Assembly (NCBI RefSeq): GCF_001083805.1
Contig: NZ_JXSK01000005.1
Coordinates: 248,001 to 312,000 of the forward strand
Source: Photorhabdus luminescens subsp. luminescens
Lineage (GTDB): Bacteria > Pseudomonadota > Gammaproteobacteria > Enterobacterales > Enterobacteriaceae
Length of the DNA: 64,000 nucleotides
Direction of reading: 5' to 3'
Positions 19,352-45,537 of this stretch are shown here, piece after piece; position 1 is the first letter of the stretch; every line of letters begins with the position of its first letter. Position numbers and translations under genes: made by a program. A model generated the notes under the pieces. It worked only from the letters and a program-made list of their open reading frames with translations. It did not search any database and was not told the DNA's origin.

Positions 19352-20449
19352 TTATAGTTTGTCTGAATTGTTCTTAATGCAAAGGGACTGACCGAATAGG
19401 CGTTTAGCTAACTGCTGACTGAATTCACGTGCAGCCCAAGGAATATATTTGGCTCCCCTTCCGGAGAAACCACTGAAGATCGCAATAGAGCGATCCGGCG
19501 GACACTGCATTTCTGGCAGATAGTTAGTTGTGTAGCCATCATATCCATTTCGTCCGTCTACGACGGTACTCTGACAGATAAGAAGCTGATTTGCCATTTG
19601 GTGATGACGAGCGTTCGCTTGTTCTGGCTGCCAGTGAAGTTGGTCGGGATTCGAAGCATTGTATTGCGTAGCTCCACCCACAAAGAAAAAAGAGGAAGAC
19701 TCAGGCCGAAAATAGCCTCCTGAACATTCATCAATAATGCACTGTTCAGGTACATCAGATTTCATACTTTGTAGACAACTGAGAGGGATGGTTCGACTGA
19801 AGATTTGACTTTCAGGATATAGTTGTGGCGTGTAAGCCCCAGCCGCAATTACTGCCAGCCTGGTTGGGAGCTTTGTATCTATTCCGGTGATCACCTCAAC
19901 TCCGCCCGAAATTTCTCGCACCGCTTTAACTGGTGAGCCTTCGAGAATTTCTACACCATGAAAACGAGCTTCATCAATGAAAATCCGAGCAGCTTGACGA
20001 GGATTCACATACCCGCCAAGCGGTTCCCACAACGCAATGCGCTTGCCGGAAAAGCAGTGACGTTGCAGCGTTGGAAAGCAATGGGTAGATTCGACTTCAC
20101 TTAACATATGAATGGGGTACGCATCGGAAGAGAACTCAGTAATACGCTGACGAGCTAGGGCCTGATGTTCTGCTTTGAGCAAGTAAACCAAGCCACAGCG
20201 GGTAAAAACATCGGGATGCGTTGCTGCGATCTCACTCCATACCTTAATGCCTTGGATATTCTTTGTCATCAGAGCATACAGTGGATCATAGACGCGTATT
20301 ATCCCTCGTGAATGCACCGTTGCTCCTCCGGCACCGGGTGCTGTAGCTTCTAGTAGCAAGATTTTCAGTGGTAATTTGCTGCACCAAAATGCTAATGCAC
20401 TACCAGCCAACCCTCCCCCGACGATAATGAGGTCCCATTGCGAAGCCAT
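19352..20449 (-). CDS. FAD-dependent oxidase, glycine-oxidase/DAO family (Spb36-like)
   Basis: A 365-residue flavoenzyme with an N-terminal Rossmann motif (IIVGGGLAGSALAFWCS, residues 8-24) and a DAO-type C-terminus (FSGFSGRGAKYIPWAAREF), last gene of the operon. In known hydrazine pathways (Spb36 of s56-p1, with relatives in formycin and pyrazofurin clusters) a glycine-oxidase-like FAD enzyme cleaves the N-N-linked diamino-acid conjugate. That releases a hydrazino acid and an amino-acid semialdehyde. The companion hydroxylase, cupin and MetRS-like genes in this operon make that role likely here; it is inferred, not shown. It starts 3 bp after the cupin stop. Confidence 0.8.
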   Translation of the reverse strand: MASQWDLIIVGGGLAGSALAFWCSKLPLKILLLEATAPGAGGATVHSRGIIRVYDPLYALMTKNIQGIKVWSEIAATHPDVFTRCGLVYLLKAEHQALARQRITEFSSDAYPIHMLSEVESTHCFPTLQRHCFSGKRIALWEPLGGYVNPRQAARIFIDEARFHGVEILEGSPVKAVREISGGVEVITGIDTKLPTRLAVIAAGAYTPQLYPESQIFSRTIPLSCLQSMKSDVPEQCIIDECSGGYFRPESSSFFFVGGATQYNASNPDQLHWQPEQANARHHQMANQLLICQSTVVDGRNGYDGYTTNYLPEMQCPPDRSIAIFSGFSGRGAKYIPWAAREFSQQLAKRLFGQSLCIKNNSDKL

Positions 20450-20452
20450 GTC

Positions 20453-20824
20453 TTACCCTCTGTTTTGGATGTTGTTGCCCCCAATAGGGCCAAAGAAAAT
20501 CACCCATGTTCTAAAATCGCTACTGAACGATTCAAAGCGATGATCAACATAAGCGGGAACAAATAGAAAATCTCCAGCAGAGAAATTGACATAAGCTTCT
20601 CCCCGACGGAAAACACCATGACCAGAACTGACGATATAAATTTCGTCCCTGTCATGTGGTGTTTGAGTATCGACTTCGACAGGAGAAAATAGTTCAACGG
20701 AGAGTTGTCCCCTTTCAAACAACACGGCAAAAGGCTGTGGTAGGCTAGGAAGGTAGGTTGCTGTTTCAGACTCATTGATATGTAAAATATCGTCAGGAAT
20801 ATTTGTATCGGATACTACACTCAT
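20453..20824 (-). CDS. Single-domain cupin, second cupin of the operon
   Basis: A 123-residue cupin_2 protein with metal-binding motif 1 (HDRDEIYIVSSGHGVF, about residues 57-72) and motif 2 (GDFLFVPAYVDHRF). Its ATG overlaps the TAA of the preceding (frameshifted) gene as TAATG, and the FAD oxidase begins 3 bp after its stop, so all three are translationally linked. It differs from the cupin at 24012-24410, which sits beside the MetRS-like gene. It might act on the released hydrazine or support the oxidase; the role is unknown. Confidence 0.8.
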   Translation of the reverse strand: MSVVSDTNIPDDILHINESETATYLPSLPQPFAVLFERGQLSVELFSPVEVDTQTPHDRDEIYIVSSGHGVFRRGEAYVNFSAGDFLFVPAYVDHRFESFSSDFRTWVIFFGPIGGNNIQNRG

Positions 20825-21860
20825 TATGCATTACTCCCGGTATTCAAAATAGGCAGATCATTCTTTGAAATTAGTCCCCATTTTAGTCCCTGTAACTCCC
20901 CTTGTGGTGAAAGGGTCAGTTCACCATAAGGGGTCTGCCAGCATTGCTGACGTAGATGCATTATTAATGCTTTTCCTTGCAGATGTGGATTGTGCCGCCA
21001 ACTGTCGCATAGAACCCGAATAGCCAGATAACTAGTAAAGAAATAAGCTCCCGGTTGTTTTTCGATAGTGAGAAAGCTCTGCTAATTAACTGATATTGAG
21101 TATGCTCTAGCATATTGCTACCATAATTAATAAGAAAAGGCACAGTAATATTTGGATGTGTCAATTGTCGTATTGCTGGGCCATATGCATCATCCGATAA
21201 AATGATTTTTGCCACAGGAGAAAAGGCATATCGCTGCATTAACCCGAAGGAAAACTCTTGACTGCCCAACAGATAGACGACATCACTTTGTAAAGCCAAC
21301 TGTATAATCTTTTCATCACCGATAGCAGGCGAAATAGACAGATAAACGTTAGCCGTGATATTCATAGACGCCAGCGCAGCACTCAACTGATCAGCAAGAC
21401 GTTCTCCATAATTATGCTGTTGTGCCAAGATCAAAACCTGATCATCAGTGGAACAGCACGCGATAAGACACAGTAACTGTTCATCATCACGTCCAAAAAA
21501 ACGCAGCGTACTTCGCTTCTGGCGACATAAGTCAGGGTGGGAACTTCCTGGTGTGATAAAGGGAAGTTCGTTGGCTTCATAGAGGGGGCTGGCCGCTAAT
21601 GCGGTAATGCTACTGAAATGTCCCACGATCGCATGACTGCCCGCTGAAATCACTTCTCGGGCCGCCTTCTTTGCTTGTCTGGCTTCCCGCCCATCGTCGA
21701 AGTAACGCAGCTTGACAGATATCCCTGCGTCGTTGACTGCTAGCAGTGCCGCCACCAATAAATCTTGCTGATTGGGACCATTACTTTCACTGAGTGAAAG
21801 CTGGTGGCAATCATTGCCACCATGAAGGCAGTCGGCTTGGTTAATCCATTTTGGTAGCAT
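20824..21860 (-). pseudogene. LivJ/AmiC-like type I periplasmic-binding-fold protein, frameshifted
   Basis: The first 260 or so residues match the Leu/Ile/Val-binding fold (AALLAVNDAGI, then AIVGHFSSITALAASPLYEANELPFITPGSSHP), but no signal peptide is present. This suggests a cytoplasmic AmiC-like ligand sensor rather than a transporter subunit. The frame then runs out at 20964. A second frame from about 21078 to TAA at 20824-20826 supplies exactly the expected C-terminus (GAYFFTSYLAIRVL, then TPYGELTLSPQGELQGLKWGLI). One indel near 21050-21080 therefore breaks the gene. The restored stop overlaps the cupin start (TAATG), showing the original end. It may be a mutation, a sequencing error or, less likely, programmed frameshifting. 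Confidence 0.8.
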
Positions 21861-22413
21861 CTCTGTTTTCCTGGTTCACTCCACCATGCAATATATAAGG
21901 CTCACCTTGAGCATCAAACAACTGTTTGAAGGTAAATGCATAGGGTGTAGTGCCATAATCGTGTAAATACTCAAGTCGATGACATGCCTCACGCCAGCAT
22001 GGTTGGTGATTATCAGGCACCCACCAGACGACGTAGATAGGCCAGTTTTGTTTGCCAAACCAGTTTTTGCGAAGCTGTAATGCCTTTTTATGTAATGGTC
22101 CGTAATAGGCGAATTGATAAATACTTTCTAGATCGCGCCAAAGAGAAAGGGTCTGCGCCTGTTTAGTATGACCATTGCTTATCCCATCAAGGTAAAAGCG
22201 TGGCACTGCAAAAGGACCCCATCGTCCCCAGTCTTTCTGGTAATTTGTCATCCAGACAATATCTTCCACTGGTTTGGCCCGGTCAATAAATCCTTCCGAC
22301 TTTTCTGCTTCAAGGAAAACGTCGGGGGTGCGATCATCAAACTCCTGAACCTGTATATCGCCATATGGAGCACGAAGTATGGAAAAGGTCATCAGGCAAG
22401 CTTTGGAAGTCAT
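21841..22413 (-). CDS. DUF3291-family protein
   Basis: A 190-residue protein with DUF3291 features: an Asn/Trp-rich N-terminal strand (WMTNYQKDWGRWGPFAVPRFY), SLWRDLESIYQFAYYGPLHKKAL in the middle, and the typical VVWWVPDNHQPCWREACHRLEYLHDYGTTP, of which WWVP and the H-RLE-L segment are hallmarks. These alpha/beta-barrel-like proteins resemble monooxygenase-fold dimers. Function is unknown in general; in this operon it could bind or modify an intermediate. Its 3' end overlaps the start of the LivJ-like gene by 20 bp. ATG 22413 follows AAAGGGG; ATG 22392 is an alternative. Confidence 0.75.
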   Translation of the reverse strand: MTSKACLMTFSILRAPYGDIQVQEFDDRTPDVFLEAEKSEGFIDRAKPVEDIVWMTNYQKDWGRWGPFAVPRFYLDGISNGHTKQAQTLSLWRDLESIYQFAYYGPLHKKALQLRKNWFGKQNWPIYVVWWVPDNHQPCWREACHRLEYLHDYGTTPYAFTFKQLFDAQGEPYILHGGVNQENRDATKMD

Positions 22414-22419
22414 ACACTT

Positions 22420-23985
22420 TTAACCCCTTTTGTCTAGGTGGATCACTGGTGTGGGTAGAAAAAATGACGAAGGTAAATCACACAGGTGAAGAATATCTGT
22501 GGTATTCAGCGTCATCTTGTCTATCCCCGTTAACAGATGGAACAATTTTTCACTACTCTGCGGCATTAAAGGCCAGGCAGCCTGTGAGAAACATTGCAGT
22601 AACCAGCTAACTCCCCGTAGTGTTTCTACATCATGATATTGGGATAATGTCATCTCAATAAATTTCATCAGATGTAGTAAGTCTTCCGCTGCTTGTCGCA
22701 AATGAAAGCGTTCTAAGGTGTAGCTAGCTAGAATCCGTTGACGGGCAGATTCGCCAATTTGGCGCCATGTTTCTGACAGCGTCGGCAGTGGAGTGACATT
22801 GGTCACCATTTTTTGATTCCATACCGTAGTAATGTTTCTCCAACTCTTTTCCAGTGAGTTGTCAAGCACTTTTATCATATCTGCTTCATTAAAGTTGGCT
22901 TTTTCAAAACCAGGAGCATTAAACGCCGCATAAAAGCGAATGGCATCCACGCTGTAACGTTGCGCCAGGTCAGATGCCCACACGATATGATTGTTACTGG
23001 TAGAGAACTTGGCATGATCAAAGTTATAGAACTCATTAATCATCGTTGCCCAAGGTAGCCAACGTCCGCTATCAATTTGCGATAGCATGGCGACATGCAC
23101 CACAGCGTAAAAATAGGAGTTATCAAAGCCGAAGAAATTAATGGGTACTGGAAAATCATTTAGTTGTGGATCTTGCTCAATAGCTCGTTGATAACTGAAC
23201 AACAACTCCGCCATAATTTCCGGCCAGGCATTGATCACCTGACCAGAGAAATCAGTATGTGCTATGGAAATCCCCCAATTTCCCGGCATGGTGATCGGAA
23301 AATCTGGCAGAGTCATAGACAGGGCATCTTCTGCAAGCCACTGGTAGCGTTGACGGAATCGTTTGTTTTGCTGATAGAATTGTGTAATTGGCTGGCGGAA
23401 ACGTTCCAATTCGAGTACTAATACCTCTTCGTGGCGAATTGTCATCTCTGTTGACCCGTTATTCGTCACATGGGGCTTAATAATGGTTTCAGCATTCGTC
23501 AAGTTGCCACAGGCTTCACAGATGCCACATTTACAGGTGGCTAAACAGACCGGACAGTAACCTGAAATACCCGCTTCATCATGCCAGATTTGTTCTTTTT
23601 CACTGTAAAAGAACGGAAAACGTTTTTTAACTAAAACACCACGTTGATAAAGTTGATGGAAAAGATTCCGCACCCAAGTTACTGCTTCCTCTTCCGGTGA
23701 AAAATAATCGGCTACATCAATATGATAGAGCTTAAGGGTTTTAATAATATCATCAGTCCAGTAACGGTGCAGTGTTTCCGGATCGCATTGCTGACGTTCG
23801 GCTGTCACGCGCACATAAGACTGATTAATATCACTGTAACAGGTTACAAAGCTGTGTTGGCCTTGCAAACGTGTTGCTCGGGCAAATACATCACCTGCCA
23901 GAAACGGTCCACTCATGTGCCCAACATGTAGCCCGCCGTTAGGTGTTGGAGGTGGTAATGTGATAATAAAACCGGTTGGTGTCAT
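22420..23985 (-). CDS. MetRS-like hydrazine-synthetase component (Spb40 C-terminal half)
   Basis: A 521-residue class I aminoacyl-tRNA-synthetase fold related to MetRS. The HIGH motif is HVGH (residues 20-23), a zinc knuckle with six Cys lies at residues 144-159, and the KMSKS loop is degenerate (KFSTS, about 325-329). An anticodon-binding-like helical C-terminus follows, shorter than a housekeeping MetRS. In Spb40 of the s56-p1 pathway (and PyrN, ForK, Tri28 relatives) such a domain is fused to a cupin and forms the N-N bond between an N-hydroxylated diamino acid and a second amino acid. Here the cupin is a separate gene 26 bp upstream. A housekeeping MetRS role is unlikely given length, motifs and operon. 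Confidence 0.85.
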   Translation of the reverse strand: MTPTGFIITLPPPTPNGGLHVGHMSGPFLAGDVFARATRLQGQHSFVTCYSDINQSYVRVTAERQQCDPETLHRYWTDDIIKTLKLYHIDVADYFSPEEEAVTWVRNLFHQLYQRGVLVKKRFPFFYSEKEQIWHDEAGISGYCPVCLATCKCGICEACGNLTNAETIIKPHVTNNGSTEMTIRHEEVLVLELERFRQPITQFYQQNKRFRQRYQWLAEDALSMTLPDFPITMPGNWGISIAHTDFSGQVINAWPEIMAELLFSYQRAIEQDPQLNDFPVPINFFGFDNSYFYAVVHVAMLSQIDSGRWLPWATMINEFYNFDHAKFSTSNNHIVWASDLAQRYSVDAIRFYAAFNAPGFEKANFNEADMIKVLDNSLEKSWRNITTVWNQKMVTNVTPLPTLSETWRQIGESARQRILASYTLERFHLRQAAEDLLHLMKFIEMTLSQYHDVETLRGVSWLLQCFSQAAWPLMPQSSEKLFHLLTGIDKMTLNTTDILHLCDLPSSFFLPTPVIHLDKRG

Positions 23986-24011
23986 TTTGGCTGCCTTAAT
24001 TTGATCATCAT

Positions 24012-24410
24012 TTAAAAAACGGAATCAGAACTACCACCCATATCCCAGTAAATATCTAACATTAAAAATGGGATGTTTTCTGAATGGTTACGTAACTGAT
24101 GTTCTGAAAAACGTGGCAAATAGACCACATCACCATAGGATATGGTGGTTGTTTCTCCATTGATGAATAACTCTGCTTCACCGCTGATAACAATAAATGT
24201 CTCTTCTTCATCATGTGAATGCCGATCAACATCTTTACCGGGTTCAACCATCACCCAGATACAGCCAAATTCAGTAAGTGGTCTTTGTGTGTTGACTCTT
24301 CCTTTCCAGGGAAATAACCGTCGGAGTTTACAGTTATATTCATCGGTATACAGGATATCTGCTTTACGGCGAATCAAGGTTTCAATTTTGCGGTTGGTTA
24401 CCTCTGACAT
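24012..24410 (-). CDS. Cupin partner of the MetRS-like protein (Spb40 N-terminal half)
   Basis: A 132-residue single cupin with metal ligands in HSHDEEETFIVISGEAEL and the second motif YLPRFSEHQLRN. ATG 24410 follows GGGTGA; a GTG at 24419 is an in-frame alternative. It lies directly before the MetRS-like gene, in the order of the fused cupin-MetRS hydrazine synthetases, and the summed length (about 650 residues) is close to those fusions. The likely role is rearranging the N-hydroxy ester intermediate to the hydrazine inside a two-protein complex. That is inferred from the fused homologues. Confidence 0.83.
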   Translation of the reverse strand: MSEVTNRKIETLIRRKADILYTDEYNCKLRRLFPWKGRVNTQRPLTEFGCIWVMVEPGKDVDRHSHDEEETFIVISGEAELFINGETTTISYGDVVYLPRFSEHQLRNHSENIPFLMLDIYWDMGGSSDSVF

Positions 24411-24433
24411 ATCATTCACCCATTCTATGGTTT

Positions 24434-25726
24434 CTATACCTGGTTTGTCAGAAAATGCTCGATTTTCTCTGCTATTAACCAGGAGCGAATTGAAAGCAAA
24501 CTGAATGAACCTGCGTCACCAAAACCATGAGTTGATTCACATAAGCCATTGAGAAAAAAAGGTGATAACGGTTTATCATTGCTTTCTAAACAATAATCCC
24601 GCGCCACATGCAGAGATCCATCTTCTCGGCGCTTAAAATGGTCAGCTATATTGGAAAGTAATGGATGATTACGTTCCTGGTTTTCCTCACAGCCCATATT
24701 TCTGAATCCGGTGGCAAGAATTACGCCATCAACCTGTAATTTCCTGACTCTGCCAGAAATTTTATTTTTATAACGAATTTCTATGCCCGATTTATTCTCT
24801 GTAACTTGGGAAATATCGGTCATATTATGCAGCGTAATACGTTCTCGTCCGTCCAGTTTTTGCTCATAAAGTTTCACATAGAGCATTTTAATTACATCGT
24901 GATCCGCAGAGCTGTAATTACTACGCCACAATTCACGAGTAAGCGCTTTTTGCTGTTCAATATCGAGCTGATAAAACTCATCAATAAACTCTGGAAAATA
25001 GATATGTTCAGTAAAAGGACTGACATCTTTGAACTGATAAGAATAGCCTCGGAAAATATTATGTATCCGTAGATGTGGATAACGAGAGGAAAGATCCAAT
25101 ACCAATTCTATGGCACTCTGGCTGTTGCCAATCACTGCAACAGATGTTAAATGACTTTTTGCTTGCCATTGCGACAGTGCTGAGCTTGCACGGGTAAAAT
25201 GGACTATCTGTGATGAATGACACTGCTCGAATTGTGGTGGAATATAGGGTGTCCTTCCTGGCCCAAAAGAAACCACTTTCGCATGCAAAACTCTTCCAAG
25301 ACTGGTTTCGATCCGGTATTGTTCGGAAAAAGTGTTATCTAGCGTAATGGTGATCGCTGTTTCACCATAACTCACCCAGCGATCGAAATGACGCGCCACC
25401 CAACGTACATAGCGGGCATAATCTTTTCTTAAAGGAAACTCTAACCCAAGATTGAGATATTCAAACAAACGGTTTTCGCTTTTCAGATAGCTAAGAAAAC
25501 CGTAGGGACTGATGGGGTTACGAGGAGTGACAAAGTCACGCAATGGGTTATGCTGTATATCCGAACCAGCCAGTAGCATTTCAGGTTGCCAGTCTGGAGC
25601 GGTGTTACTTTCCAGAAATAACACTGAATCTGTGATTTGCTTTTCTTCTAATGACACAGCAAGGGAAATATTACCCGGTCCAAACCCTATACCGATCACA
25701 TCGAATTCTTCAATAATATCATTCAC
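24434..25726 (-). CDS. Lysine/ornithine/diaminobutyrate N-monooxygenase
   Basis: A 430-residue flavin-dependent N-hydroxylating monooxygenase (IucD/SidA/PvdA family). The FAD motif is GIGFGPGN at residues 12-19, the NADPH motif VIGNSQSAIE is near 195-205, and ATGFRNMG is near 360. It hydroxylates the terminal amine of a diamino acid. In hydrazine pathways the homologue (Spb38, PyrM, ForJ) makes N6-hydroxylysine. The neighbouring aminotransferase of the diaminobutyrate type leaves diaminobutyrate or ornithine open as substrate. It begins 30 bp after the aminotransferase stop and ends about 23 bp before the cupin start. Confidence 0.9.
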   Translation of the reverse strand: MNDIIEEFDVIGIGFGPGNISLAVSLEEKQITDSVLFLESNTAPDWQPEMLLAGSDIQHNPLRDFVTPRNPISPYGFLSYLKSENRLFEYLNLGLEFPLRKDYARYVRWVARHFDRWVSYGETAITITLDNTFSEQYRIETSLGRVLHAKVVSFGPGRTPYIPPQFEQCHSSQIVHFTRASSALSQWQAKSHLTSVAVIGNSQSAIELVLDLSSRYPHLRIHNIFRGYSYQFKDVSPFTEHIYFPEFIDEFYQLDIEQQKALTRELWRSNYSSADHDVIKMLYVKLYEQKLDGRERITLHNMTDISQVTENKSGIEIRYKNKISGRVRKLQVDGVILATGFRNMGCEENQERNHPLLSNIADHFKRREDGSLHVARDYCLESNDKPLSPFFLNGLCESTHGFGDAGSFSLLSIRSWLIAEKIEHFLTNQV

Positions 25727-25756
25727 GGGCTCACCTTTTTTGATGGGTATCGTTGT

Positions 25757-27028
25757 TTAAGCATGCCTTAATGATTGAATAATATTTCGAGTCGCCGCGA
25801 TGATTCTCTCTGCTCCTTCCTGTAACTTTTCATTTTCAATGGTTAAAGGAGGCATACACTTAACGACTTCGTCTTGTGGTCCACAGGTTTCAATTAGGAG
25901 TTTTCTTTCGAAAAGAGAACGACTAATTTTTTTAGCCAGAACCGAAGCAGTAAATTTAATTCCTACCATCAATCCCTTGCCTACAATAGAGAATGGAGTG
26001 CCCAGATCTTGTAGTTCGGACTGAAAAATAGTTTTCAGAAACTGCTCTTTTTTCTTTATCTGCTGTGAAAAGCTCGTGTCTCCCCAGTATTTCTTCAGAG
26101 TTACTGTTGAGGTGATCATGGCAAGATTATTGCCACGGAAGGTACCATTGTGTTCACCAGGGTACCATTTATCGAGATCTGGAGAGATAAGGTTGATTGA
26201 CATGGGTAGCCCAGAACCGCTGATCGATTTTGAAATGCAGACGATATCTGGCGTAATGCCAGCTTCTTCAAAGCTGAAAAAGTTTCCTGTCCGGCCACAG
26301 CCAGCCTGGATATCATCAATAATAAGCAGAGATCCAATTTCTTGGGCTAATGTGGCGAGACCTCGTAGCCAAGCTACAGAGGCACAGTTGAGTCCTCCTT
26401 CACCCTGAACACATTCCAAGATGAATGCAGCGGGCAGATCAATACCACTGCCAGGCTTACATAACATATCTCTAATGAAACTTAATTGTTGTCCAACATC
26501 CGTGATGGAAAATTGATCGTAAGGCAGTCGTAATATCCCTGGTATTTGTAGGCCAATAGACCGTTGCTTGGCAGGGTTTGCTGTAATGGAAAGTGAACCC
26601 AGTGACATGCCGTGGTAACCGCCAGAAAAACAGGCGATAGTGTGTCGTCCAGTAACCTTACGTGCCAGTTTCAGTGCGGCTTCAATGGCATTAGTTCCAG
26701 TCGGTCCGGTGAATTGAACTTTGTATTGCAAATGTCGCGGCGTCAGAATATATTCGTGTAAAGTGGTAAGGAAGGTCTCCTTGGCTTCGGTATGCATATC
26801 TAGCCCCTGAAGAATACCATTTTCATTTAAGTAACATATTGCCGCTTCAATCATGGAGGGATCGTTATGCCCATAATTGACAGAACCCGCCCCGGCAAGA
26901 AAGTCTAAATATTCATTACCTTGTTTATCAAATAATAAGGCATTTTTACCTCGTGAAAAAATAGAGGGAAAATTCCGACAATAACTTCTGACCTCAGATT
27001 CTATGTTTTCAAAAACGGAAAAGTTCAT
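25757..27028 (-). CDS. Class III aminotransferase, diaminobutyrate-2-oxoglutarate type
   Basis: A 423-residue PLP enzyme of the EctB/DABA-aminotransferase group: GPTGTNAIEAALKLARK near residue 105, GGYHGMSLGS, the DDIQAGCGRTGNFF motif (Asp for the PLP nitrogen) and the Schiff-base lysine in CISKSISG near residue 266. The start is ATG 27028, five to seven bases after AGAGG. It could make 2,4-diaminobutyrate from aspartate semialdehyde and glutamate. In this operon it could also re-aminate the semialdehyde released by the FAD oxidase and so regenerate the diamino acid carrier; that is a hypothesis. Confidence 0.87.
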   Translation of the reverse strand: MNFSVFENIESEVRSYCRNFPSIFSRGKNALLFDKQGNEYLDFLAGAGSVNYGHNDPSMIEAAICYLNENGILQGLDMHTEAKETFLTTLHEYILTPRHLQYKVQFTGPTGTNAIEAALKLARKVTGRHTIACFSGGYHGMSLGSLSITANPAKQRSIGLQIPGILRLPYDQFSITDVGQQLSFIRDMLCKPGSGIDLPAAFILECVQGEGGLNCASVAWLRGLATLAQEIGSLLIIDDIQAGCGRTGNFFSFEEAGITPDIVCISKSISGSGLPMSINLISPDLDKWYPGEHNGTFRGNNLAMITSTVTLKKYWGDTSFSQQIKKKEQFLKTIFQSELQDLGTPFSIVGKGLMVGIKFTASVLAKKISRSLFERKLLIETCGPQDEVVKCMPPLTIENEKLQEGAERIIAATRNIIQSLRHA

Positions 27029-27072
27029 AAGCAACCTCTGTTATATAAATATTTCTTGGTAAAGGTAGAATA

Positions 27073-27555
27073 CTAACAACATTCAATTTGATAATGATAC
27101 CAACTGGTTCTATCAGCCAAGAAGCTGTCATATAACCGCTGAGCGGTTGTGTTATTTTCCTGAGTTGTCCAGTTCAGGGAAAAATATTTCCCTTGCTGTT
27201 TTGCCCATTGTAATGCGTGTAAAATAAGGTTCTTTCCCACTCCTCTGCCACGATAATCTGGAATAACATATAAATCATTTAATAATGCATTTTCAACTGC
27301 ATTAACACTGGAGAAAGTATAATAAATTGTTGAAAAGCCTATAGCATCATCTTTTTCATTTAGACAAAGATATTGTCGGCCTTTTTCTTTATTGTGGATA
27401 AATTGAGAAAAGAATAGACTGTTCTTTTTCTCATCAGGTTCACTGACATCATAAAATCTTTGATAATCCGCTACCAGTTTCAATAGATTGGAAAAATTTT
27501 TCTCATCCACAGGTACTATTTTCCACGGTGTTTTAACGCCAGATATTTGTGTCAT
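27073..27555 (-). CDS. GNAT-family N-acetyltransferase
   Basis: A 160-residue GNAT with the acetyl-CoA motif A YVIPDYRGRGVGKNLILHAL near residues 97-116 and the usual motif B region NWTTQENNTTAQRLYDSF. It resembles small amine acetyltransferases. In this operon it may acylate an amine or hydrazine of an intermediate, or provide self-protection. It starts 3 bp after the exporter stop, which indicates tight coupling. Confidence 0.82.
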   Translation of the reverse strand: MTQISGVKTPWKIVPVDEKNFSNLLKLVADYQRFYDVSEPDEKKNSLFFSQFIHNKEKGRQYLCLNEKDDAIGFSTIYYTFSSVNAVENALLNDLYVIPDYRGRGVGKNLILHALQWAKQQGKYFSLNWTTQENNTTAQRLYDSFLADRTSWYHYQIECC

Positions 27556-27558
27556 AGA

Positions 27559-28485
27559 TTATTCCTCCTGCTGTAATTGTTGTTTCACTTTCTCTTCCTG
27601 ATTTTTCTCTATCTTTAAACCAATAAATGAAATGATTATCACACTAATAATCGCTATTAGCGAGTAGATGGAGAGTTCCAGACGACTATCAAATATTTGG
27701 AAAACAAATACAAAAAGCGGTGTTAACAATAATATATAAGAAACTTGTACAGGAGGAACTAAAGTAATACCCTTCTGTAGCATAAATAGAGGGATCACAT
27801 TTCCGAATATAGCAATAATCATAAATTCAGTCAGATATGTGTTAAAATCGGCGGTCAGGTCTTTACTGAGATAAAACGACACGATGAGTAATAAGAAAAA
27901 TCGCATTGACATTAATTGATAAAGATTAAAACCATTATCGTAGATTTTTTTTGACACGACATTAATGATAGCCATACAGAAACCGGTTAATATTGCCATT
28001 ATAAAGCCATGAATTAATTGTCGATTTTCGACATTTGTGAGACCAGAGTGTCCTTCCGATACAGTATACCCGACTAACAGCATACAGATGATGGTGAAAA
28101 CACTGACCAGTAATTTGACAGATGTTAAGTTTCTCATTTGCTTTAATAAAAAGACAGAGACAATTAACGTAGCTAACGGATTAATCCCGTACAATGTTGC
28201 TGCTGTAAGCGCTGGTTCCATATACCGCAATGAAATATATAAAAAGAGCCACGATCCAAGTGTCGCAGCATTAAGTATGAGGAAATACATTATGTTACGT
28301 AAATTCAATATGGCCTGATTATTACGATGAAAGTAGTTTAGTATGGCGAAAATAATTGTGATAATGGCAAAATTAATAAATAAAACGTTATAGACATTAA
28401 TTCCCTGTAGGAGGGAACCGAGCCAAACTGATTGTGCGGCAGACAACACATCAAAGGTCAGAACGAATAATATTCCCTTGTTCAT
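27559..28485 (-). CDS. DMT/EamA-family exporter of the operon
   Basis: A 308-residue inner-membrane protein with ten hydrophobic segments in two repeats. Its ATG at 28485 overlaps the TGA of the ATP-grasp gene (ATGA), so I prefer it to the upstream in-frame ATG at 28497. It shares the LR-aromatic-MEPA and FQ-x-FDSR motifs with the transporter at 890-1810. It probably exports the end product or an amino-acid-like intermediate. Confidence 0.82.
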   Translation of the reverse strand: MNKGILFVLTFDVLSAAQSVWLGSLLQGINVYNVLFINFAIITIIFAILNYFHRNNQAILNLRNIMYFLILNAATLGSWLFLYISLRYMEPALTAATLYGINPLATLIVSVFLLKQMRNLTSVKLLVSVFTIICMLLVGYTVSEGHSGLTNVENRQLIHGFIMAILTGFCMAIINVVSKKIYDNGFNLYQLMSMRFFLLLIVSFYLSKDLTADFNTYLTEFMIIAIFGNVIPLFMLQKGITLVPPVQVSYILLLTPLFVFVFQIFDSRLELSIYSLIAIISVIIISFIGLKIEKNQEEKVKQQLQQEE

Positions 28486-29729
28486 TTTAACACCCATAAT
28501 TTACCGGATTTTTCCATTTCCCTAATGCGTTGGGTATCATATTCCAATGCACGCGGATCTTGGTTAGCCAAGAAAATTCCTCCAGGGCTATCAAACAGAT
28601 TGCTGGTGGGTAATAATTGTTGGCCAATATTGATATTCCAGAATGCCGTGGTATAGGAAGACAATGTTTCAGCCCATTTCATGCCAGGAATATCGACGAT
28701 CATCCCTTTGTCATAGTTAATCAAAGATACTGCTTTTGAATGCTTATAGTAAACCGGAGGCAATTGTGTACGTTGATGGAAACGCTCCGGATCGATGGCC
28801 GCATCAACTAGTAGATCAAGCTGTGACACATTCGAAAAAAACTGAACATTTTTTGGTGCCTTCGCACCATGCAACCGCGCACCCACTTCTATCAGTACTG
28901 GTCCATGTTCATCGACCATAATTTCAAAATGCGCAGCGCCAAAGTGGATACCTAGCGCATTCATCACATTTATCGCGTATTCAATAACGTTTTTGACTTC
29001 TTTTTCTGAGGGATGAATAAATAGTTCTTCTGAATAGACAATTGCACCATTTGGTAATATTTGTTTTTTGTACATGGACGTATTGGTGATGTAGTGTGTT
29101 TTATTCAAACTTACGCTATCGACGACATATTCTTTTCCTTTGATAAATTGCTGGGCTAGGACATATTCATTGTGATTTCCTAGAGCATCGTACTTGCCTA
29201 CAATGTTAGAAATTGCTTGCTCTATCTCAGCGCCAGTCTGGCAAAATTTAACGCTGTCCGTACCGGCTGAACTGAGAGGTTTAATGACTATGGTTGATGA
29301 TAAATGGTGTTCTAGCCATGGCTTCAACTCTTCGAAGCTTGACACTTTAATTTGTGGTATAGATCGTAACCCGGCTCGAGCTATCCGTTCTTGCATCAGG
29401 TACTTATCACGCAGGCAGAGTAGGATGTCTGGCTCACAACAGGGTAAACCCAGGTGATGAGCCAGTGTATTTGCCAGCAAGACACCACTTTCAGTTCCTG
29501 GTACCACGGCTTGGCAGTCATATTCATTAATTTTATTGATTAACTCACTAAAATTAGATATGGTATGGGGTAATTCGTTTATAAAATTATCTTTATGATA
29601 GGAGGCCGCATAGACTGCCGGTATATTTACACTGCTTTTAACGCAAACGCTTGAAAATCCCCTTGAATAAAACTCGCCAGCGAGATATTGTCCGCTGGAG
29701 TAAGGGTCAACAATCGCAACAGTCTTCAT
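28482..29729 (-). CDS. ATP-grasp ligase, amino-acid/peptide ligase type
   Basis: A 415-residue ATP-grasp enzyme, first gene of the eleven-gene operon. It has an N-terminal pre-ATP-grasp domain (VAIVDPYSSGQYLA), the ATP-binding strand IVIKPLSSAGTDSVKF near residue 150 and the metal-binding end FEIMVDEHGPVLIEVGARLHG near residue 280, as in BacD-type L-amino-acid ligases. It probably joins an amino acid to a second amine or hydrazino acid by an acyl-phosphate. ATG 29729 follows GGAG at seven bases. The operon promoter should lie in the AT-rich 29730-29930 region; I did not find a clear consensus. Confidence 0.85.
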   Translation of the reverse strand: MKTVAIVDPYSSGQYLAGEFYSRGFSSVCVKSSVNIPAVYAASYHKDNFINELPHTISNFSELINKINEYDCQAVVPGTESGVLLANTLAHHLGLPCCEPDILLCLRDKYLMQERIARAGLRSIPQIKVSSFEELKPWLEHHLSSTIVIKPLSSAGTDSVKFCQTGAEIEQAISNIVGKYDALGNHNEYVLAQQFIKGKEYVVDSVSLNKTHYITNTSMYKKQILPNGAIVYSEELFIHPSEKEVKNVIEYAINVMNALGIHFGAAHFEIMVDEHGPVLIEVGARLHGAKAPKNVQFFSNVSQLDLLVDAAIDPERFHQRTQLPPVYYKHSKAVSLINYDKGMIVDIPGMKWAETLSSYTTAFWNINIGQQLLPTSNLFDSPGGIFLANQDPRALEYDTQRIREMEKSGKLWVLK

Positions 29730-29930
29730 AGTAAACTCCATAAATTCTTACCAAATTTCATCCAATCATAAAAAAACACAAAGTAAATAGCTTTGGTTGT
29801 ATTAAGATAACAAAACTTTCTATTCTGTGACTTATGTGGATAAAGTCCATTTCGTCCCGCTTGATGGATGTATAGGCGCAATATCAACCATTGAAATAAT
29901 AAATTAGCGTTTATTTATTAGGAAACAAAT

Positions 29931-31212: not shown

Positions 31213-34200
31213 TTAATCAGATTTACGATTAATTATTTCGCCATTAGTTGTACTACTTTCAGTTTCATTACTATAAGTTTTCACCAAAGGTATTTTGCCG
31301 GACAATACACCTTCCTGAACTGCCTTAACAATTCCGCTAACAGAATCAGGTAATGCAACATTGCCGCCTTTACTATTGTCATAACCAGTAACAGATTGTT
31401 GTTCCACATTTTGGGTATTAAGAATGACATTGCCTTTCTCGCTACCAATTTGCCCGCCAATCAGATGAGTATTTCCTTTTACATCTAAATTAACCCCTTG
31501 ATTGCCGGAAATAACCGATTGTTCGCCGACATTTTCCCGATCTTTAATATCAACATTGCTCTTAAGTTTACCTGTAACCCCATTAATACCTTTAATATTA
31601 TTAAGACTATTAAATGCAGAGGTTAATCTGTCCTGCCATCCTTTCGGTTGTGGCTCTTCGGTTGGGTTTTTAGATGGATCATCTTTCAATACCTCATCTT
31701 TCGACACATCGTCTTGAGGCGAATCATCCTGAGTTGCTTCGTCTTTAGGGATATCGTCACTTTTTACTTTGGATTCTTTCGTGTAATTAATGCCAGCATC
31801 AACACCGACATTTAATCCATGTTCAGTATCTTTACGGCTTTCAACTCGGAGATCGCCGCCAATACTGCCTTTTACCTGATCAGCCTCTATCCGCGCTCCG
31901 GCAACTGTCGTATCGCCGCCGCTGTTGATAACGACATGTTCACCTTTAATATGGCTATTACGTTGGGTTGTTGCTTGCAGGCGATCAATACCCGCTTTGA
32001 CTTCCCCGCCAAAGTTATGTTTTGTGGTGGTGGTTGTACTTTCATCTTCCGCTTTCTTGATCGAGCTTGCATTCCCTCCATTGCCTTTCAGGTTAAATTC
32101 CCAACCATCGTTATTAATGCGATCCTGAGCAGATACCAGTTCAACATTACCTTGTTTAGCATTCAGGTCGATTTGCTTACCGGTCACTTCGGCGCCTTTC
32201 AGCGTCAAGTTATTGCCCGCACTTAGATTGACACCTTGCTGACCACTAATCTCACTGACCTGAGCTGTGGTACTATTTTTGCTATCTGTGTTGTAACCGC
32301 CGCCAAGACCGATATGAACATTCTTGCCTTCCGGCGAGTTCCCTCCTTTAGCAGATGCTTCTCCGTTATAACCGGTTGCTGTTTTCGTTGTGCTATTGGC
32401 GGCATTATCAAAACGGATATCACCTTTAGCATCTATATTGGCTTTGCCAGCGCCAGTATTCAGAGATGTGCCTTGATATTCAGCGTCCCTTTCGACGCGA
32501 ATATTAATGTCATCCGCGGCGGTAATCCGGCTGGTTACTGCTTCGGTTGTCGCGGTATGGCTGCTTTGTATGCCGCCTTTGCCTTTACCATTACCGGAGA
32601 TATCTTCACCGGTGGTGGTGTAAACACGTAAGTCAGCATTGCCGCGGGTTTCACTGTGGCTGCTTTCGTGGTGATTCTGTGCTGCTTTACTGTTATGGCT
32701 ACCGGCGGTTAGTGTAACGTTACCCTTATCAGCACGATATTGAGTACCCTGATCATACAGCTCGCCATTGGTTTTCATGACGATATTGCTAGCCTGAACA
32801 GAAGTTACAACCGCTTCGGACTTTTGGTTTGCGGTCTGAATATTACTGCCGTTGGCGGCAATATCTGCGCCGAAATTAGGTGTGCCTTTTTTGGTTAAAG
32901 TGCCATCCAGCGCAGACTTAGCGGGTTCTTTAACGACTTTCTCAATTGGGCGAGTAACAGCGCTATAATCGACATTGACGCCAATATCTGCGCCAACCTG
33001 TAGTTTGCGATTGGTATTTGATTCCGTATTCGATACGGCCAGATTGCTGACCTTGCCTGCCTCAGCGGTATAAGCGCCATTGACTTCATGCTTAGTCCCT
33101 TCCTGAACCAATTCGCCGTTGGTTTTAATGTTCAAATTACCTGCGATTTGAGAACCGGAAACAACGGCAGTCGTACTGGTATGATTGTTATTATTACCTT
33201 CATAATTACCATGAATACCAGAACCAAATTTATCAACTCCTCCGGTAAGATAACCTCCAACGTAAGTTTTACTCTGAGATTTCTCTTCGGATTTTTTATT
33301 ATCTGCGGCTAACAGATGAACATTCGCACCGGTGATCTTAGCATCACCTGTAGTCGTCACCAGATTGGAACCACGCAAGGTGACATCTTTATCAGCATCG
33401 ATAGTGATGCTACCTCCACTCAAGGAGGAAGCTTGCTGTGTTATCGTCTGATTTTTTTGACTGTTACTGGTATGTTCAATACCTATTCCGGCACGATACT
33501 GTTTATCCCCCTTTGGTTGGAAGTGAACTTGCGGCTCCAGAGAGGTGCTTTGTTTATCAACCTGTTTCTGCTCGCCATAAGAGAGCACGTTGATATTACC
33601 GGATGTGTTCAGGCTAAGCGCGCCGGTACTTTGCACCTGACTGCCAATAATATTGATATCTTCATCACCGAGTAATTTGAGATCCGCTTCAGAAACCAAC
33701 TCGCTGCCATGAGATTTCTGTTGATGGCTATTGGTTCTTTTTGAGCTGTTAGTGATGTTGAGTACGGTGCCTGTTCGCTCATCGATTTTTTGATTGATGT
33801 GACTGACCGCATTATCGATGGTGACTTCACCACTATTAGCATGTACAAAAGCACCTTGGGTCGCTTTTACTTTACTACCGGTAATCGCTATACCCTCATA
33901 ACCTGATAGCAATAAACGCCCATTAGCCGTCAATTCGGATGCGTGGCTGGTTTCTTTCAACTCACTATTGTCTTTATTCTTGCCGCCGCCGATACCGCCC
34001 CAGTATCTTTTATCATCACGTACAGCACCGCTGTTAGCTGTTTTCTGAACATCTATTTGCAGTTGTTTACCGGCTTCCAGTGTCAGATTTTGACCTGCAT
34101 GGACTTTCGCCCCAAGAATCTCGGCTTGATTTCCCGCTTTAATATCAATATTACGACCTGCTTGTAATTCACTGGCAATCAGGCGTTCGGTCTGTTTACT

Positions 34201-35655
34201 CTCTTCCCAACTTCCGGTCTGCAATTTAGCTGTTTGATTTTTTTTATAACCTTTTTCTGATGATGTTTCTATTTCAGTTAAGCCCGCAATCTGCACATCT
34301 TTTTTCGCTGTAATAGCCAGCTTATCGTTGGCATTTATTTGACTGCCACGGATCTTAACGTCACCTTCAACGGCATTTAAATTCACATTCTGCCGGGCGG
34401 TTATCGTATTCCCTGCCTGATGCAGTTTTTCACTTTCTCGAGTGACCTCATTGCGCCGGGAATAACGCCATTGGTTATCAATATTTTTAGTAGATTGTTT
34501 TAACTGCTGCCCATCTAAAGTCAGATTAGCGCCACTCAGATTAACATCATCACCCACGATATCCGTGGCTGTAATCCGGTTATTATTATTGGCGACCAAT
34601 GAGATATTTTTGCCTGCTAGTTGAGTGCGGGCAAGTGACTGACTACTTTTACTCTCATTGACATAAGAACCGCTGAAATAGCTTTGGTAATTATTGCTAC
34701 CATCACGGCTATATGCTGATTCGCTGACTTTACCTTTTACTTCAATATTATTACCTGTGAGCGCAACATCTCCGCCTTGCAGGTGCGCCGCTTCTAAATT
34801 GAGATTGCCGTGGGAATTAACCATAATCTCGTCACTGGCAGTAAGAGAACCTTGCAAATTAACGCCACTGCCTTTTGCGGTATTGAGTAGACGGATACGC
34901 CCCGCTTGCATACTGCCAAGATAATAGCTATCGAGAACACCGGTTAACTGTTGCTGAGAATCAATGATTTCTCCTGTGGCTGAGGTTTTATTTTCACCAC
35001 TGATCGCATTAATCTCTTTTTGAGCGGTGACTAGGCCCCGGTTGTCAATTTTGGGTGCGATAAGATCAAGGATCGCATTGGCGATTAAACCATCCGATTT
35101 AATTTTCAGGCTATTCTGATTATTAAACATATTAAAACCTTGCAAATCACCTTGTTCTACCAATGGATTACCCACAACCAGAGAGGCGCGGTTAGTATTG
35201 ATAAAGCCACATCCATTACAGGTGATGCCGTTTGGGTTTGCCAGTACATAATCTGCTGCTATACCAAACACCTCCTGTTGACCTAATAACAGAGAAGGGT
35301 TTCTGCTGATAACTTCATTCAGAATCAGGCTAGCGGCTTGACCATTTAAATTAGGGTTAGCAGCGAGCTGACCGGCTAATTGTGATTGCCCCTCCTTCAG
35401 CGCATTATTTAGCACGACGCCCATCTGACCGACGTTGTAATCCAGATATTGGTTATGTGACAGCCCGGAAGAGGAGGGGGTCACGATATTCACAACCGTT
35501 GCTTTACCTTCGGCAGCGAAAATATCGGGATGGTGTGCTGGATCGCCGCCGCCAACGATTTCGCTGGCAAAACTGGTAGAACAAGAGACAAGAATGATTG
35601 CCATAGAAGCGGTAAGCTTGCCGGTAGGGGATAACCTGAATTTTTTGTTTTTCAT
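31213..35655 (-). CDS. TpsA exoprotein, ShlA/HpmA/PhlA-type haemolysin
   Basis: A 1480-residue two-partner-secretion exoprotein. It has a signal peptide (to about SFA, residue 30) and the TPS haemagglutination-activity domain (about 35-270), with the NPNGITCNGCGFINT motif and the paired Cys 147/150 typical of Serratia ShlA and Proteus HpmA. A long run of filamentous repeats follows to the end. The match to ShlA extends along most of the protein (YLGSMQAGRI, KTANSGAVRDDK-WGGIGGG, LGSGI, AVTRPIEK). This points to a pore-forming cytolysin activated and exported by the TpsB next door rather than a CdiA. There is no VENN motif or separate toxin tip. Photorhabdus PhlA is of this type and size. Confidence 0.88.
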   Translation of the reverse strand: MKNKKFRLSPTGKLTASMAIILVSCSTSFASEIVGGGDPAHHPDIFAAEGKATVVNIVTPSSSGLSHNQYLDYNVGQMGVVLNNALKEGQSQLAGQLAANPNLNGQAASLILNEVISRNPSLLLGQQEVFGIAADYVLANPNGITCNGCGFINTNRASLVVGNPLVEQGDLQGFNMFNNQNSLKIKSDGLIANAILDLIAPKIDNRGLVTAQKEINAISGENKTSATGEIIDSQQQLTGVLDSYYLGSMQAGRIRLLNTAKGSGVNLQGSLTASDEIMVNSHGNLNLEAAHLQGGDVALTGNNIEVKGKVSESAYSRDGSNNYQSYFSGSYVNESKSSQSLARTQLAGKNISLVANNNNRITATDIVGDDVNLSGANLTLDGQQLKQSTKNIDNQWRYSRRNEVTRESEKLHQAGNTITARQNVNLNAVEGDVKIRGSQINANDKLAITAKKDVQIAGLTEIETSSEKGYKKNQTAKLQTGSWEESKQTERLIASELQAGRNIDIKAGNQAEILGAKVHAGQNLTLEAGKQLQIDVQKTANSGAVRDDKRYWGGIGGGKNKDNSELKETSHASELTANGRLLLSGYEGIAITGSKVKATQGAFVHANSGEVTIDNAVSHINQKIDERTGTVLNITNSSKRTNSHQQKSHGSELVSEADLKLLGDEDINIIGSQVQSTGALSLNTSGNINVLSYGEQKQVDKQSTSLEPQVHFQPKGDKQYRAGIGIEHTSNSQKNQTITQQASSLSGGSITIDADKDVTLRGSNLVTTTGDAKITGANVHLLAADNKKSEEKSQSKTYVGGYLTGGVDKFGSGIHGNYEGNNNNHTSTTAVVSGSQIAGNLNIKTNGELVQEGTKHEVNGAYTAEAGKVSNLAVSNTESNTNRKLQVGADIGVNVDYSAVTRPIEKVVKEPAKSALDGTLTKKGTPNFGADIAANGSNIQTANQKSEAVVTSVQASNIVMKTNGELYDQGTQYRADKGNVTLTAGSHNSKAAQNHHESSHSETRGNADLRVYTTTGEDISGNGKGKGGIQSSHTATTEAVTSRITAADDINIRVERDAEYQGTSLNTGAGKANIDAKGDIRFDNAANSTTKTATGYNGEASAKGGNSPEGKNVHIGLGGGYNTDSKNSTTAQVSEISGQQGVNLSAGNNLTLKGAEVTGKQIDLNAKQGNVELVSAQDRINNDGWEFNLKGNGGNASSIKKAEDESTTTTTKHNFGGEVKAGIDRLQATTQRNSHIKGEHVVINSGGDTTVAGARIEADQVKGSIGGDLRVESRKDTEHGLNVGVDAGINYTKESKVKSDDIPKDEATQDDSPQDDVSKDEVLKDDPSKNPTEEPQPKGWQDRLTSAFNSLNNIKGINGVTGKLKSNVDIKDRENVGEQSVISGNQGVNLDVKGNTHLIGGQIGSEKGNVILNTQNVEQQSVTGYDNSKGGNVALPDSVSGIVKAVQEGVLSGKIPLVKTYSNETESSTTNGEIINRKSD

Positions 35656-35719
35656 ACATTAGTCTCTATATATTTAGTTATATTGTTGTGTGTACAGCGT
35701 TGGGTACTGCTTAAAACCA

Positions 35720-38055: not shown

Positions 38056-38646
38056 TTAGTTATTAGTTACTTCAACGTATGGATCATATCGATAATAACC
38101 CAAGAGCTTTTTGCCATCATAAGCAGCAAAGAACCATGTATATTGTTCTTCGCCTGGTCTATGAGCTGTTGCTTGGAAATAACTGTCTTGAGATTCAACA
38201 AAAATTACCTTAGGGGCATCTTCATCTGCATTAACGCCTGAAGGAACCATTGGAACTTTTTTGCCTATAGGATTCTGTGACCATATTTGTGATGGGACAG
38301 AGATGACATCTTCTCCTTTACTAAGTTTTTTGAATTTATACAGTATAATTGTATAGTCGAAATTATTAGATACAGTTGTCGCCCTCCATCTAATATTTGC
38401 ATTAATGGGAACAGTTACACGGGCGCCAGATGAACTCGCCACTTTTAGCCCAAACTCTGGAGTATAATTTGCTATATATACATGCTGACGAATAATTGTT
38501 GGATCTTTAGGGTCCAGAGAATTTTTAAGATTATTAGTGTGAAGATATTCAATTATTGACTCAATATCAATAACAAAGGTCACATCAGCTGTAACAGATT
38601 TCCTGGCTGTAACAGTATCATCTTTACCCTGAATGATTTCATTCAT
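38056..38646 (-). CDS. PixA/AidA-family inclusion body protein
   Basis: A 196-residue soluble protein of the AidA/PixA family: an N-terminal DVTFVIDIESIIEYL strand-helix, central VTVPINANIRWRATT, and a C-terminal YTWFFAAYDGKKLLGYYRYDPYV. Xenorhabdus PixA forms cytoplasmic inclusions and is phase- and condition-regulated; Ralstonia/Burkholderia AidA is under quorum-sensing control. ATG 38646 has a GAGG site. It is divergent from a LuxR gene with a palindrome in between, so control by that LuxR is likely. Confidence 0.85.
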   Translation of the reverse strand: MNEIIQGKDDTVTARKSVTADVTFVIDIESIIEYLHTNNLKNSLDPKDPTIIRQHVYIANYTPEFGLKVASSSGARVTVPINANIRWRATTVSNNFDYTIILYKFKKLSKGEDVISVPSQIWSQNPIGKKVPMVPSGVNADEDAPKVIFVESQDSYFQATAHRPGEEQYTWFFAAYDGKKLLGYYRYDPYVEVTNN

Positions 38647-38768
38647 TATAACACCTCTTTACATATTTAAATTATTTATTAGTAATCGAAAGATTATTTT
38701 GCTTACTCATTATTATTATAATAACTTTCTTTTTATATAATTAACTATTAAAGTTGAAACAGCTACTG

Positions 38769-38788
38769 GTATAAACCATAGTTTATAC
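38769..38788. promoter_or_regulatory. Perfect 20-bp palindrome, candidate LuxR operator
   Basis: GTATAAACCATAGTTTATAC: two exact 8-bp arms around a 4-bp centre, the geometry of lux boxes. It lies 123 bp upstream of the pixA-like start and 370 bp upstream of luxR in their shared 512-bp AT-rich promoter region, where I see no other feature. Confidence 0.5.
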
Positions 38789-45516: not shown

Positions 45517-45537
45517 ATAAGGGTTCCTTCTCTGAAT

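Follow-up and report, generated by a model that had tools for sequence, protein, structure and literature searches.

Eleven close-packed genes lie on the minus strand, from 29741 down to 19352, of a 64,000-nucleotide stretch of Photorhabdus luminescens subsp. luminescens (assembly GCF_001083805.1, contig NZ_JXSK01000005.1, positions 248,001 to 312,000), hereafter the window. In 5' to 3' order, this candidate hydrazine-synthetase operon encodes an ATP-grasp ligase, an EamA-family transporter, a GNAT acetyltransferase, an EctB-type aminotransferase, a flavin N-hydroxylase (N-hydroxylating monooxygenase, NMO), a cupin (cupin 1), a methionyl-tRNA synthetase (MetRS)-like protein, a DUF3291 protein, a periplasmic-binding-protein-like (PBP-like) protein, a second cupin (cupin 2), and an FAD enzyme (Table 1). 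Intergenic distances range from -20 to +38 nucleotides, with the sole exception of 139 nucleotides before cupin 2, a gap largely taken up by the PBP-like gene's out-of-frame tail. A promoter scan gave 38 sites against 35.8 (standard deviation 5.3) in shuffled sequence, and with no excess, no promoter is claimed. The open reading frames (ORFs) of an initial annotation are all present in their places on the minus strand, and Pfam and NCBIfam broadly agree with its labels. It began cupin 1 at 24410, a possible ATG three codons into a gene whose start is a GTG at 24419, and it lacked the EctB-type aminotransferase and the PBP-like gene.

Table 1. Genes of the operon in the window, in order of transcription.
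Feature	Length (aa)	Position	Strand	Evidence
ATP-grasp ligase (first gene)	419	28482..29741	-	NCBIfam NF005543 (PRK07206) 375 bits, cut-off 302; PDB 30vh 'L-amino acid ligase', E 3e-62
EamA-family transporter	312	27559..28497	-	PF00892 60 bits
GNAT acetyltransferase	160	27073..27555	-	PF00583 63 bits; several below-cut-off matches to antibiotic acetyltransferases
EctB-type diaminobutyrate--2-oxoglutarate aminotransferase (class III)	425	25757..27034	-	TIGR02407 571.4 bits, cut-off 552.2
Flavin N-hydroxylase (NMO, Lys_Orn_oxgnase family)	430	24434..25726	-	PF13434 278.7 bits; PDB 3s5w L-ornithine 5-monooxygenase, E 8e-61
Predicted hydrazine-synthetase cupin (cupin 1)	135	24012..24419	-	PF07883 63 bits; predicted ligands H67, H69, E73, H107
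Predicted hydrazine-synthetase MetRS-like protein	521	22420..23985	-	PF09334 181.5 bits; HVGH, Cys insert, KFSTS
DUF3291 protein	190	21841..22413	-	PF11695 109.9 bits
Periplasmic-binding-fold (LivJ-like, Peripla_BP_6; PBP-like) protein	298	20964..21860	-	PF13458 40 bits
Second cupin (cupin 2)	123	20453..20824	-	PF07883 31 bits; T55, H57, E61, H95 in hydrazine-synthetase spacing
FAD-dependent amine/amino acid oxidase (DAO family)	365	19352..20449	-	PF01266 123 bits

In the hydrazine synthetases studied by Zhao et al. (2021, PMC8664883), the MetRS-like part couples an amino acid to N6-hydroxylysine as an unstable ester, which a zinc cupin rearranges to the N–N product. The Glu of the zinc-ligand set is essential in both PyrN and RHS1 (PMC8664883). 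The predicted ligands of cupin 1 have the same spacing (0, +2, +6, +40) as H50/H52/E56/H90 of PyrN and D63/H65/E69/H103 of RHS1. The H-x3-E-x33-H motif is found in just two of the 102 window ORFs with 80 aa or more, namely cupin 1 and cupin 2, and it is present in 11 of the 12 cupin-1 proteins checked. The MetRS-like protein has HVGH at residues 20-23, K326 followed by FSTS, and six Cys in an insert, features that the initial annotation had correctly picked out. Across 16 aligned sequences (alignment A4), H20, G22, H23, D52, four of the six Cys, W254, and FSTS show no variation, and the Lys of KFSTS occurs in 14 of them. The motif, earlier called degenerate, is therefore normal for the family. 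K458, the Lys of the PyrN ATP-binding motif, is essential (PMC8664883), and K326 would be its counterpart, judging by the motif. By these sequence features, cupin 1, the MetRS-like protein, and the linked NMO form a candidate ATP-dependent hydrazine synthetase set of the PyrN, Spb40, and RHS1 type.

A search of genome contigs with the single MetRS-like sequence returned zero relatives, while a repeat with an alignment (A1) as query found them, and the best 80 of at least 566 were used. With the window, L020-L022, and L036-L039 (L, locus; G, genome), these make 88 synthetase loci; the counts below omit L027-L034 and Leisingera sp. S132 (L035) and include the near-copies L045/L046 and L102/L108. 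The closest relatives among the best 80 are seven proteins with 47-55% identity, from a Rhizobacter metagenome-assembled genome (MAG), Litchfieldella anticariensis, Azospirillum soli, a proteobacterial MAG, Agrobacterium, and two Leisingera. Each of their loci contains a cupin and an NMO. On the MetRS-like tree, the window falls in a clade of eight (Shimodaira-Hasegawa-like approximate likelihood ratio test, SH-aLRT, 100), whose members adjoin cupin and NMO genes. The protein does not group with canonical MetRS, a comparison that the initial annotation had proposed as a check. There is next to no chance that the gene encodes a spare tRNA-charging MetRS. It does match PF09334 and MetRS models, but its best MetRS-model score, 225.4 bits, is far under the curated cut-off of 553. 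The canonical MetRS is a separate gene on another contig (G000:C4), is 21% identical, and has KMSKS where the MetRS-like protein shares KFSTS with other NMO-cupin-MetRS-like operons. The spare-MetRS explanation was rejected on these three grounds.

Unlike the fused cupin and MetRS-like architecture of Spb40, Tri28, and PyrN, the two parts are encoded here by separate genes. The initial annotation took this split as a special feature, yet it is an ordinary arrangement. Hydrazine synthetases sometimes occur as two standalone proteins (Zhao et al., 2021, PMC8664883), and the cupin motif lies within the MetRS-like ORF in only 5 of 96 entries, with one gene entered twice among the five, in a sample biased by the split query. 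L029 is also fused according to BLAST and has no strict cupin motif. A two-gene synthetase was therefore rejected as a novelty.

The NMO gene adjoins cupin 1, and this linkage is kept in the loci of relatives. The NMO-cupin-MetRS order is conserved in Litchfieldella, Azospirillum, Agrobacterium, and Leisingera, at 48-60% NMO identity. Because the nearest solved relatives of the NMO are ornithine and lysine monooxygenases, and the aerobactin route includes a GNAT (PMC2922099), the NMO might instead serve a hydroxamate siderophore with incidental neighbors. This is very improbable. The conserved gene order argues against it, and Pfam finds no NRPS-independent siderophore (NIS) synthetase or nonribosomal peptide synthetase (NRPS) domain among the 11 genes; the candidate was rejected on both points. 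The initial annotation had asked whether the NMO falls inside a siderophore set. On both NMO trees described below, it groups with the NMOs of other synthetase loci.

The EctB-type aminotransferase would make L-2,4-diaminobutyrate (DABA), and its model cut-off is passed in none of 14 control genomes. A tree was built from one best NMO per locus, for the 83 of 88 loci with a long enough NMO, and the window lies within a clade of 16 (SH-aLRT, 99). With EctB homologs called at E < 1e-120, EctB is present in 15 of these 16 loci and in 0 of the 72 others (Fisher p 5e-16), a value that overstates the association, given related loci, near-copies, and some short loci. Of the 72, 67 have an NMO on the tree and five lack one of sufficient length, some on short contigs. 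In EctB-positive loci, the distance from EctB to the MetRS-like gene never exceeds 8.4 kb. L074 and three Bacillaceae loci, whose NMOs are just 28-32% identical to that of the window, likewise have EctB. On a careful tree of 49 NMOs, the same 16 fall into one set (bootstrap/SH-aLRT, 100/99) together with three second NMOs from EctB loci.

The sole member of the NMO clade without EctB in its locus is L041, from Litchfieldella, a halophile. Its genome has adjacent ectA, ectB, and ectC genes on another contig (EctA 226.7, EctB 644.9, and EctC 183.1 bits, all above cut-off). The Litchfieldella operon would need no EctB of its own because the cell already makes DABA for ectoine. EctB presence requires 3 label changes on the NMO tree (shuffled mean 15) and 7-8 on the MetRS-like tree (shuffled mean 14-15), where the fit is looser. 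Such closer tracking of the NMO is expected if EctB feeds this enzyme. Thus, gene context points to the NMO as a putative N4-hydroxylase of DABA, and the hydroxylamine is probably N4-hydroxy-DABA rather than a lysine derivative.

Evidence from sequence and gene context makes it likely that the operon produces an N–N-bonded (hydrazine-type) small molecule via a DABA-type ATP-dependent hydrazine synthetase. In the proposed pathway, EctB would convert aspartate semialdehyde to DABA, and the flavin NMO would hydroxylate its N4. By analogy with characterized relatives, the MetRS-like protein would adenylate a second amino acid and transfer it to the oxygen of the hydroxylamine to form an unstable O-acyl ester, and the zinc cupin 1 would rearrange this ester through E73 to form the N–N bond. 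The steps after the cupin are read from gene context. The FAD oxidase may cleave one C–N bond of the hydrazine intermediate and release a hydrazino acid. The ATP-grasp enzyme could then link this acid to a further amino acid or close a hydrazide, the GNAT may acetylate for tailoring or self-protection, and EamA would export the product.

The actinopyridazinone pathway of Streptomyces sp. MSD090630SC-05 is similar by description, with an NMO, a MetRS/cupin synthetase, and an intermediate-cleaving FAD oxidase among Apy9, Apy10, and Apy11 (PMC11705231). Apy11 and Apy9 use N4-hydroxy-DABA (PMC11705231), the partner proposed here. Unlike the P. luminescens operon, the Streptomyces cluster uses alanine as the partner and has a synthetase named as one protein. 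The present operon is Gram-negative and has separate cupin and MetRS-like genes, EctB, DUF3291, a second cupin, and an ATP-grasp gene. The por system of Pseudomonas orientalis (Por9/Por11), also Gram-negative and likened by description, has a synthetase that takes N4-hydroxy-DABA or another hydroxylamine, with glycine (PMC11705231). PyrN of the pyrazofurin (pyrazomycin) pathway and RHS1 of Rhodococcus jostii (PDB 5UQP) share the cupin spacing, the essential Glu, and the ATP-motif Lys, and the RHS1 cluster likewise has standalone cupin and MetRS-like proteins (PMC8664883). However, these systems couple N6-hydroxylysine with glutamate and have a putative saccharopine dehydrogenase downstream (PMC8664883). 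The s56-p1 pathway (Spb38/Spb39/Spb40) has the NMO, the MetRS/cupin synthetase, and the FAD oxidase, but its synthetase is fused and joins lysine and glycine on the way to hydrazinoacetic acid (PMC11705231).

The evidence supports the initial annotation in reading a hydrazine-synthetase operon with an oxidase, a ligase, and an exporter in an insect-pathogen genus; its emphasis on split genes and its pathway comparisons need amendment. The s56-p1 FAD oxidase, which it gave as Spb36, is Spb39, and ForK, suggested as a cupin/MetRS alignment partner, is an N-hydroxylase (PMC11705231). Pyrazofurin, said to share the FAD-oxidase trio, has a saccharopine dehydrogenase (PyrL) suggested at the cleavage step (PMC8664883). 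A class of MtRS-paralogue operons was described in 2010, with Photorhabdus luminescens among the hosts (Aravind et al., PMC2922099). These operons contain a cupin, an NMO, and a MetRS paralogue, with neighbors including GNAT, ATP-grasp, periplasmic-binding-superfamily, and DABA-transaminase genes, although their chemistry was predicted as Met-Lys peptide synthesis; DUF3291 is not named for them in the available text (PMC2922099). The presence of PBP, ATP-grasp, and DABA-transaminase genes in such operons was therefore rejected as a novelty. The kind of system is already known from Spb40, PyrN, Apy9, and the 2010 genomic description, and the operon is a split-gene variant, most likely of the DABA branch, with an unusual accessory set. 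Among open-licence PMC papers, a scope that leaves most subscription papers outside, no report of this variant or its product was found.

Among named families, the ATP-grasp protein is nearest to PRK07206 and, below cut-off, to dapdiamide synthase DdaF (212 bits), a resemblance that suggests a dipeptide or an amide as the end product; the enzyme likely couples the hydrazino amino acid to a further amino acid. It is 56% identical to the L041 protein, and the EamA protein, a probable exporter, is 50% identical to the product of the gene adjoining the L041 ATP-grasp gene. DUF3291 is found in 8 of the 16 loci of the NMO clade and in 0 of the 72 others. In the nearest operons that have it, it is 62-67% identical and thus more conserved than the MetRS-like protein there, and one His, H108, is invariant over 17 members. 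The family is not rare in general (12 of 150 genomes of the phylum sample, including the window genome, and 2 of 14 controls), and it has no match among PDB sequences up to E 0.1. The open-licence papers searched yielded a single occurrence of the name. A PHROGs search was uninformative.

The PBP-like gene occurs in 16 of the 88 loci, including the window (12 of 16 in the NMO clade and 4 of 72 elsewhere), always on the MetRS-like strand and 0.5 to 5 kb away, and also in L030, outside these counts. Hydropathy inspection of 13 N-termini revealed no signal-like peptide, with the possible exception of L022; the window protein has none. GH and DD are invariant over 13 sequences. Only four Peripla_BP_6 matches, the operon copy included, occur in the 5.46 Mb genome, so a chance position beside the synthetase is unlikely. 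Second cupins are also present in L041, L045, and L046, with Thr or Gln as the first ligand and H/E/H retained. The FAD enzyme is 45% identical to its L022 counterpart.

The whole operon is matched only in the window's genome among 12 genomes of the genus. Two sister genomes, G006 and G009, have a common deletion that joins window position ~21120 to ~29713, plus two smaller deletions inside the FAD gene. Their flanks are 92-94% identical to the window, and the breakpoints agree within a few bases. In G010, ~85 bases of cupin 2 are left at the operon site, followed by other genes. The three remnants lie at L018:9689-10654, L019:10243-11212, and L023:8911-8995. The operon was probably present at this site in the common ancestor and lost at least twice. 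Cupin 2 is still open in G006 and G009, with nonsynonymous to synonymous rate ratios (dN/dS) of ~0.12 and 0.13 against the window, which may merely reflect recent loss. The less usual features of the system are cupin 2 with its H/E/H spacing, a DUF3291 protein that, within these loci, is limited to the DABA-type NMO clade, and these sister-genome remnants.

It is rather unlikely, although there are precedents, that the synthetase instead takes N6-hydroxylysine (or N5-hydroxyornithine) in the manner of s56-p1, triacsin, and pyrazofurin, while EctB provides some other building block. Lysine is used by several characterized hydrazine synthetases, and Apy9 accepts several hydroxylamines (PMC11705231). 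DABA transaminase genes in such operons were read in 2010 as makers of extra residues or modifiers (PMC2922099). However, EctB presence fits the NMO tree more closely than the MetRS-like tree, and the ectoine-producing exception fits a supply of DABA. It is also unlikely, and slightly more so, that the operon is in decay and yields no product in this strain. The shared deletions of G006 and G009 and the short cupin-2 fragment of G010 point toward decay in the genus. In the window itself, the PBP-like gene carries a frameshift toward its 3' end; its last 62-65 residues match three relatives in another frame, at ~20870-21060, and relatives have intact copies. This frameshift may be real or a base-calling error. 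Against decay, nine other genes, leaving out GNAT, align nearly full length with relatives.

Besides the frameshift, several observations weigh against or weaken the reading of a DABA-type hydrazine synthetase operon. At a first, looser cut-off of 1e-100, L108 (Micromonospora) was an additional EctB-positive locus outside the NMO clade. Its aminotransferase is class III, 27% identical, and on the opposite strand, and it was dropped at 1e-120, a cut-off chosen after L108 had been seen. In L042, EctB and the MetRS-like gene lie on opposite strands. On the careful tree, the three second NMOs fall among the 16, which thus do not form a strict clade. With EctB also in L074 and the Bacillaceae loci and their distant NMOs, a single NMO specificity across the whole clade is an assumption. 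Two further EctB-type genes in the same genome score above the cut-off, so EctB is not unique to the operon. Among the 88 loci, several are short or stop close to the synthetase genes (e.g., L039, L075, L093, L104, L107, and L115), and the absence of a neighbor there is weak evidence. For the core, the L022 cupin departs from the exact motif spacing, and L021 and L022 have Asp in place of the KFSTS Lys. The pairing of the window with L041 alone has no support on the MetRS-like tree (SH-aLRT, 3), rising to 98 when L040 is added. The comparisons with Apy9, Apy11, Por9/Por11, Spb40, and PyrN are by description rather than by sequence alignment. Finally, the FAD enzyme has no significant similarity to the L041 (E 0.48) or L045 (not listed at E 1) proteins. 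The module thus seems to have been exchanged, and cleavage is the weakest step of the proposal.

A more speculative extension concerns cupin 2. It might itself form an N–N bond by rearranging a second hydroxylamine ester, with DUF3291 and a cytosolic PBP-type protein handling intermediates, to give an amino acid that is doubly N–N-bonded or cyclic (pyridazine-like) and leaves the pathway as a dipeptide. This is improbable. Cupin 2 has a below-cut-off match to acireductone dioxygenase (PF03079, 22.1 vs 27 bits), and a gene for this enzyme was named in a subset of MtRS-paralogue operons (PMC2922099), which makes N–N formation by cupin 2 less likely and suggests that this cupin type may already have been noticed. 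If true, such activity would represent a branch of hydrazine chemistry not yet described.

Other arrangements of related genes occur in the genus and beyond. G001, G002, and G007 have a different MetRS-like gene, 26% identical to that of the window. In G001, which was inspected, it follows a plu4264-like cupin, with EctB-like, NMO, FAD, and PBP-like genes nearby. This cupin (L021:9077-9445) lies between the EctB-like and MetRS-like genes, carries H-x3-E-x33-H, and is identical at 120 of 122 residues to plu4264 (PDB 4mv2, 4q29), plu being the locus-tag prefix of Photorhabdus luminescens. Judged by sequence, plu4264, a PDB name without a function, is probably a hydrazine-synthetase cupin. In L022 (G028), the cupin at 7571-8218 has an N-terminal extension that reads as carrier-protein-like, and the cluster also has an adenylation-domain-like ORF. 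A third arrangement is found on plasmid pXT29 of Xenorhabdus sp. TCT-1 (L150), where a synthetase-type cluster lies near a Tn3-family transposase. Its annotation includes a methionine--tRNA ligase, an adenylation-domain protein, a GNAT, a rhodanese, and PvdA, and the gene content resembles L022. On a plasmid of Leisingera sp. S132 (L035:11986-12923), the MetRS-like gene of a related NMO-cupin-MetRS-like set is broken into two ORFs that lie in different frames.

Elsewhere in the window, 31213-37387 encodes a two-partner secretion (TPS) pair, a TPS/hemagglutinin-repeat exoprotein with a ShlB/FhaC-type transporter. At 38056-39887, a gene for a PixA inclusion-body protein, a family from Xenorhabdus and Photorhabdus, is divergent from a gene for a LuxR-type autoinducer-binding regulator. 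A high-GC stretch at 42907-46878 encodes a type VI/phage spike-like protein with a C-terminal phage-lysozyme domain and has a VasL/ImpA-type gene. Two phage-integrase-family genes with the same domain make-up, at 53713-55131 and 61515-62804 in the GC-rich end of the window, suggest integrated elements.

Hydrazine-type natural products are rare and often bioactive. The present analysis suggests a gene-context signature for predicting DABA-derived hydrazines, namely, this NMO clade together with EctB or a host ectoine pathway, and it provides related gene sets in Litchfieldella, Azospirillum, Agrobacterium, and Leisingera for comparison. It also offers two conserved proteins, DUF3291 and the second cupin, for biochemistry, and a likely function for the solved structure of plu4264 (PDB 4mv2).

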